From contig NZ_JALCYY010000005.1 in NCBI RefSeq assembly GCF_022690685.1, positions 1 to 64,000 on the forward strand: a stretch of 64,000 nt of DNA. The letters run 5' to 3'. The notes below the pieces were generated by a model. The model saw only the letters and a list, made by a program, of their open reading frames with translations. It was not told where the DNA came from and did not search any database. Below are positions 1 to 328 of this stretch, one piece after another. The stretch's first letter is position 1, and every line of letters starts with the position of its first letter. Both the position numbers and the translations under genes were made by a program. Source of the DNA: Anaeromyxobacter terrae. GTDB taxonomy: Bacteria > Myxococcota > Myxococcia > Myxococcales > Anaeromyxobacteraceae.

Positions 1-90
1 GATCAGCTCGAGAGCTACATCCGCGGCGGCCGCGCCGGTCAGCTCTCCCAGCCGATCATGACGCTGTTCAGCCACGGCCGAGCTGCCTGA
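1..90 (+). CDS. 3' end of an unidentified protein (cut by window edge)
   Basis: Frame 1 is open from the first base to a TGA at 88-90 and encodes 29 residues ending in SHGRAA. The start lies outside the window. Nothing in the short tail identifies a family. The stop codon is followed after one base by the 180-bp palindromic element at 92-271. Whether the tail is the original C-terminus or was altered by insertion of that element cannot be judged here. Confidence 0.45.
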   Translation, partial: DQLESYIRGGRAGQLSQPIMTLFSHGRAA

Positions 91-91
91 C

Positions 92-271
92 GCGGAGCCC
101 GGTTGATCTGGGCGCGGCACGAGGCGCGCGATGGCGTCGGCGAGCCGGGCACACGACGACCGAGCAGCGCAGGCGGGCCTGGAAGGCCCGTCGAGCAGCG
201 CAGGGAGGAGTCTGCCCGGCGCAGCCAGCCAGCGTGCGCCGCAGTAGCGATCCAGATCAACCGGTCTCCGC
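92..271. repeat. Symmetric 180-bp palindromic element with 20-bp terminal inverted repeats
   Basis: The ends 92-111 and 252-271 are inverted copies matching at 19 of 20 positions, with core CCGGTTGATCTGG. Two further inverted pairs are nested on the same centre near 182: GCCGGGCA at 144-151 with 213-220, and GGGCCT at 175-180 with AGGCCC at 184-189, leaving a 3-base loop. A 13-bp direct repeat, CGAGCAGCGCAGG, sits on either side of the centre (161-173 and 192-204). It has no convincing ORF. It could be a MITE-like mobile element, a REP-type intergenic repeat or a structured transcript; copy number in the genome would decide. Confidence 0.7.
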
Positions 272-300: not shown

Positions 301-328
301 CGGCGGGCCCGCGATCGCGGGCCCGCCG
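301..328. terminator. 28-bp perfect palindrome, possible terminator stem
   Basis: Bases 301-328 equal their own reverse complement, centred on GATC, in the gap between the palindromic element and the methyltransferase gene. There is no T-run after it on either strand, so intrinsic termination is only a possibility. It ends 16 bases before the GTG start of the next gene, so a transcript reading through would place a very stable hairpin next to the ribosome binding region. Confidence 0.4.

Follow-up and report, generated by a model that had tools for sequence, protein, structure and literature searches.

The DNA analyzed here, a stretch of 64,000 nucleotides from Anaeromyxobacter terrae that we refer to as the window, begins with the end of a gene that is followed almost directly by a 180-bp palindrome (Table 1). 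What kind of element is this, and what maintains it? An earlier note, made from the letters alone, had judged its nested symmetry unlikely to be due to chance and had considered a non-autonomous mobile element, a genome-wide repeat or a structured RNA. We favor, with a probability of roughly 0.7, a non-autonomous DNA transposon (a palindromic MITE) that carries a conserved structured core.

A dispersed hairpin and its copy in the window

The earlier note had described three nested stems and a pair of 13-bp direct repeats. The terminal repeats, the exact middle pair and the inner stem are all real and lie where they had been placed, but this description understates the structure: the full 180 nt fold as one nearly continuous rod. 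The direct repeats were likewise correctly located; they are not independent repeats, but the two sides of GA/GCA internal loops. Folding of both strands, which the note had proposed, gave this single rod with -126 kcal/mol on the plus strand and -113 kcal/mol on the minus strand, and the 130-nt interior reached z = -5.05 on the plus strand and -2.67 on the minus strand relative to dinucleotide shuffles.

Table 1. Coordinates of the window copy (positions in the window) and features of related elements
Feature	Position	Strand	Remarks
3' end of upstream gene	1..90	+	TGA stop at 88-90, 1 nt from the element
Whole palindromic element, one copy of the family (subfamily A)	92..271	+	Full-length matches elsewhere; continuous hairpin
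Left terminal inverted repeat	92..111	+	19/20 against 252-271
Right terminal inverted repeat	252..271	+	Pairs with 92-111
Conserved core hairpin	116..248	+	Match to covariance model R1, 141 bits, positions 1-133; alignments A1, A2
GA/GCA internal loop 1, GA side	121..122, partner 241-243	+	GA/GCA in 36/36 sequences
GA/GCA internal loop 2, GA side	142..143, partner 221-223	+	GA/GCA in 35/36
Middle pair	144-151/213-220		GCCGGGCA/TGCCCGGC, exact
Tandem GA/GA loops	155..159 (GA at 155-156 and 158-159)	+	Partners 208-209 and 205-206; GA/GA in 36/36 and 32/36 sequences
First 13-nt box, CGAGCAGCGCAGG	161..173	+	GA 162-163 and GCA 169-171, internal loops 3 and 4; loop 3 is GA/GCA in 30/36 sequences
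Central hairpin of the rod	172..190	+	
Inner stem	175-180/184-189		
Second 13-nt box, CGAGCAGCGCAGG	192..204	+	GA 193-194 and GCA 200-202, partners of the first box
Arms by subfamily			GCGGAGCCCGGTTGATCTGG (window, A); TGGCGCCACCCGCTTGCGTTGAGC (C2); TAGCGCCTCCCGTTCGCGTGGGGCCC (D); GAGGTCGTGAAACATTCCCGAGCC (L086)
Element ends for matching to partner insertion sequences			CTAGGAGG..., GCGGAGCCC..., TGGCGCCACCC...
Family 2 hairpin	L200:1147-1312; G000:C1:24488; C80:31490 (G000 is the window's genome)		Invariant tandem GA loops, IS1182-like ends

The window's own genome has two further places with full-length matches at 97-98%, and A. soli has one. Across the whole assembly (5.65 Mb, 142 contigs), 26 match rows were obtained, which reduce to about 20 separate places when inverse and split rows are left out, and 27 of 41 related genomes, the window's own counted in, hold copies. 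Of 117 genomes in the order, 31 were matched by a covariance model of the 133-nt core, with at least 28 matches in the richest genomes and with E values of about 1e-20 in other families; all copy numbers are lower bounds. Five genomes from other genera or families of the order (G017, G036, G076, G109, G116) gave between 12 and at least 28 core-model matches each. When 84,980 species genomes were searched for the core pattern, matches came only from records of Anaeromyxobacter, Anaeromyxobacteraceae and Myxococcaceae, among them A. oryzisoli SG63, A. soli SG29, PSR-1 and MAGs; the search of viral contigs, plasmids and phages gave no match. No Rfam family matches the element above its gathering score, and literature searches retrieved no description of this hairpin family. 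The proposal of a genome-wide repeat is therefore borne out, and the roughly 20 places together with the covariation seen in relatives exclude a chance palindrome, as they do the outcome that would have refuted the earlier note, namely a single copy without covariation.

The gene upstream of the window copy has an intact counterpart on contig C55, a 158-aa ORF that we take to be a CBS-domain protein. Positions 1-91 of the window are identical to C55:168162-168252, the end of that intact gene, and an element copy follows there too. In A. soli, the same gene is followed by a terminator-like palindrome resembling window positions 301-328, which suggests that one of the two element joins (window or C55) probably reflects a misassembly at this repeat. 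The palindrome at 301-328 is itself a perfect 14-bp one (CGGCGGGCCCGCGA/TCGCGGGCCCGCCG), lies between the element and a methyltransferase-like ORF, lacks a T-run, and has a similar counterpart in A. soli, where it follows the ortholog of the upstream gene.

The core, its ends and the strand under selection

The copies have in common the core of about 133 nt. Outside it, the subfamilies differ strongly in arms of 20-25 bp that nevertheless remain mutually complementary, and in other myxobacterial families the same core is framed by still other, near-perfect arms of 25-30 bp, mostly CTAG-tipped. The terminal repeat of the window copy is common to subfamily A copies at unrelated sites. The element spreads as units of about 150-180 bp without a conserved reading frame; three loci (L021, L022, L089) display an identical internal-deletion junction at different sites, and A. 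oryzisoli harbors nested and reduced copies. Two further repeats were observed in that species: a palindrome CGTTCGCCCTGAGC...GTCGAAGGGCGA inside element copies, replacing the central hairpin or the core (L187, L189, L193, L196), and another, separate palindromic repeat, AGAGCTCGTCGAAGAATTCGACGAGCTCT, that lies next to copies of the element or occupies orthologous sites (L110, L160, L192).

In 36 distinct copies, compensatory changes were evident at 30 of the 57 pairs, and 95.1% of the cells of the core alignment pair, as against 30-43% for slid structures; none of 500 shuffles reached the observed covariation. The core thus meets the criterion for a structured RNA that covariation support its fold. 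In 20 copies that come from other genera and families, the pairs flanking the GA/GA and GA/GCA loops have been swapped, but most of the loops themselves are retained. In the outer stems, a strand-blind comparison counted 38 distinct G.T states and only 5 A.C states (p ~1e-7; counts collapsed by subfamily, not corrected by a full tree), and substitutions at Watson-Crick pairs yielded 29 G.U and 9 A.C. This excess argues for selection on one of the strands in its single-stranded form. The whole hairpin shows no such bias (3.5 G.T and 3.2 A.C per copy), our explanation being that the conserved internal loops contribute A.C mismatches, and the test was for this reason confined to the outer stems. 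There is good support for the view that the core is preserved as a single strand with a fixed polarity.

Complementary arms alone would not require this, since template-switch repair corrects long hairpins: an ordinary MITE could retain its palindromes through such quasi-palindrome correction while its single strand remained functionless, and the outer arms are indeed complementary in every subfamily. However, correction of this kind would erase internal loops, of which the GA/GA and GA/GCA ones are invariant, and it predicts no bias of G.T over A.C, in conflict with the ratio of 38:5; an excess of C>T at unpaired positions is also missing (4 vs. 4). We give this scenario very little weight.

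It is an inference, made without transcript data, that the selected strand is RNA. The structured-RNA proposal of the earlier note hence holds as far as a conserved, strand-specific structure with covariation is concerned, and is only inferred with respect to RNA. The plus strand could also be selected as a single-stranded DNA hairpin during replication or transposition, recognized by a recombinase or transposase in the manner in which Y1/RAYT transposases recognize REP hairpins. The strand bias would be compatible with this, DNA hairpins also tolerate both G.T pairs and tandem G.A mismatches, and RAYT-like Y1 proteins are present in the genus. Yet the RAYT loci examined lack a strong core match, and the persistence of the core through changing ends and an apparently changing type of duplication fits poorly with a single recognizing enzyme; moreover, Y1 enzymes are not known to make 3-bp target duplications such as those described below. 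We consider a DNA hairpin of this kind unlikely, without dismissing it.

Occupied and empty sites

Empty sites were located in relatives by the joined flanking sequences. At locus L082, the filled site reads GAGTGA-element-TGACAGCGCG, with TGA on both sides, and the empty counterpart GAGTGAGCGCG occurs in the window's genome and in A. soli, the uninterrupted site being present in six genomes. At L083, the filled site ATGCGTCTGA-element-TGAAGGCGG contrasts with the empty ATGCGCCTCCCGGCGG of two relatives; here the insertion falls within codons 3-4 of a gene, and the last A of the element together with the duplicated TGA creates a new in-frame ATG, which we infer to serve as the start of that gene. 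As to the window copy, the ortholog of its upstream gene has no element in A. soli or in four further relatives.

In 23 of 40 copies from subfamilies B-E, the three bases to the left and right of the element agree (17 TCA/TCA, 6 TGA/TGA, none crossed), while shuffling gave a mean of 12.5 and not one of 20,000 shuffles reached 23. The 3 bp that these subfamilies duplicate follow the pattern TNA and are mostly TGA/TCA. In subfamily A, the element lies one base away from stop codons, with TGA, TAG or TAA on its left and mostly TTA or TCA on its right, and it may duplicate TA within YTAR; in other families, a TA duplication was read by eye and is not firm, given the self-complementary tips. With presence and absence at orthologous sites and target duplications both found by the comparison that the earlier note had called for, the mobile element that it proposed is supported, the duplications being those of subfamilies B-E, and mobility is close to certain.

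Copies often adjoin stop codons. In 17 of 23 cases, the duplicated TGA terminates a reading frame that had been open over at least 100 codons, compared with 7 of 23 background TGAs, and in 17 of the 23 copies with clear target duplications the structured strand runs antisense to the neighboring gene, so that read-through would not produce the RNA there. Such a position at gene ends might point to an immobile host element, either a bidirectional terminator or an mRNA stability element. This is hardly tenable in view of the empty sites and duplications, the insertion inside codons 3-4 at L083 and the common internal-deletion derivatives; in addition, no T-run terminator was found and the window's site is not conserved at orthologous genes. 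A repeat derived from a retron or msDNA, as has reportedly been described for the myxobacterium Nannocystis, would agree with a myxobacterial host and a long hairpin with complementary ends, but the target duplications are of DDE type and we regard such a derivation as next to impossible. For the window's own genome a retron origin is refuted: no reverse transcriptase (RVT_1) was found there or in its close relatives G001-G005, several of them copy-rich.

Transposase, proposed cargo and known systems

A candidate for a partner transposase, at least of a related hairpin family, comes from G004, which we take to be A. dehalogenans 2CP-1, with nine full copies of an IS1182-family element (NF033551, 370 bits). 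This element has TCA on both sides, and several of its copies adjoin a hairpin of about 165 nt (family 2), for which G004 gave about 43 match rows, some in head-to-tail arrays, and which is also found in the window's genome. The family 2 ends resemble those of the IS1182 element (GAG..CGTGAA..ATC), the flanks of 11 aligned copies are TCA/TCA in seven and TGA/TGA in three, and its tandem GA loops are invariant (consensus energy -112 on the plus strand, -72.5 on the minus strand). L086 joins ends of the family 2 type to the core of the window's family. The IS1182 element resembles these hairpins in the TCA duplication at gene ends and, in the case of family 2 and L086, in its ends, which makes an IS1182 derivation possible for them; its ends, in contrast, do not match those of subfamily A.

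For the window copy, a link to an IS1182-type transposase is therefore an inference. The window's genome yielded no IS1182 homologue and no PF01609 (DDE_Tnp_1) or PF13586 (DDE_Tnp_1_2), other transposase families lying outside this search; a terminal-repeat pattern search found no insertion sequence in which subfamily A ends enclose a transposase, returning only element ends and background-level singletons; and when the ends of IS1182 relatives from other genomes were sought automatically, none of the inverted repeats obtained was convincing. Several Anaeromyxobacter genomes encode 222-aa Y1 proteins like REP-associated tyrosine transposases (L127, L128, L138, L139, L130, L140), about two per genome, and L127, the one scanned, fell below the NCBIfam cut-off. 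A REP/RAYT system was considered and rejected, since the Y1 proteins found were all weak and none of the examined RAYT loci matched the core strongly.

We propose that a DDE transposase acting in trans would recognize the outer inverted repeats, and that for at least one related family it may be of the IS1182 type. Sites with TGA, TCA or TAG are presumably tolerable in GC-rich genomes mostly at gene ends only, which could explain why surviving copies lie flush against stop codons. Across the order, the core hairpin of one strand persists, while lineages differ in their ends and, apparently, in their type of duplication. As the core outlives these changes, it is not simply the site of one transposase. 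It may rather be cargo that depends on no particular transposase, the likeliest candidate being a structured RNA produced from the plus strand, although transcript data are not available. Our preferred guess is that this RNA would benefit the element itself, e.g., by protecting transcripts of the host or by using the repeated GA modules to bind a protein. Tentatively, and at somewhat less than even odds, we suggest a new class of transposon-borne structured RNA, a rod of GA/GA and GA/GCA loops found order-wide that swaps its terminal repeats and hence its transposase.

MITEs are usually viewed as ends without content; here, it is the content that selection preserves, while the ends are exchanged. 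Should the core be RNA, it represents a family of RNAs that has not been described and that is present in many copies per genome, and the natural set of inserted and empty sites makes the element directly testable. Landing on stop codons, and at times leaving a usable start as at L083, renders its survival compatible with dense, GC-rich genomes.

The REP/REPIN/BIME sequences associated with RAYT are likewise palindromic, intergenic and multi-copy, and weak RAYT-like proteins occur in the genus. The element, at about 180 nt rather than 20-40 nt and with 3-bp duplications, differs from them; no copy was found beside a RAYT gene, and the criterion of GTAG/CGTC-type palindromes of 20-40 nt next to such a gene is not met. 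HEARO/omega RNA elements, which insert at TGA-containing sites, also place a structured RNA (inferred in our case) on a mobile element, whereas the present one has no Rfam match and no ORF, and has a target duplication. Closest in form are the bacterial MITEs, whose criteria of small size, multiple copies, absence of a transposase gene and terminal inverted repeats are all met: both are short and dispersed, without a conserved frame, with inverted-repeat ends, target duplication and internal-deletion derivatives, and both lie near gene ends. MITEs, however, usually keep their ends and lose their interior, whereas in this element it is the ends that vary and the interior that is conserved, showing compensatory evolution across the order and a strand-specific structure.
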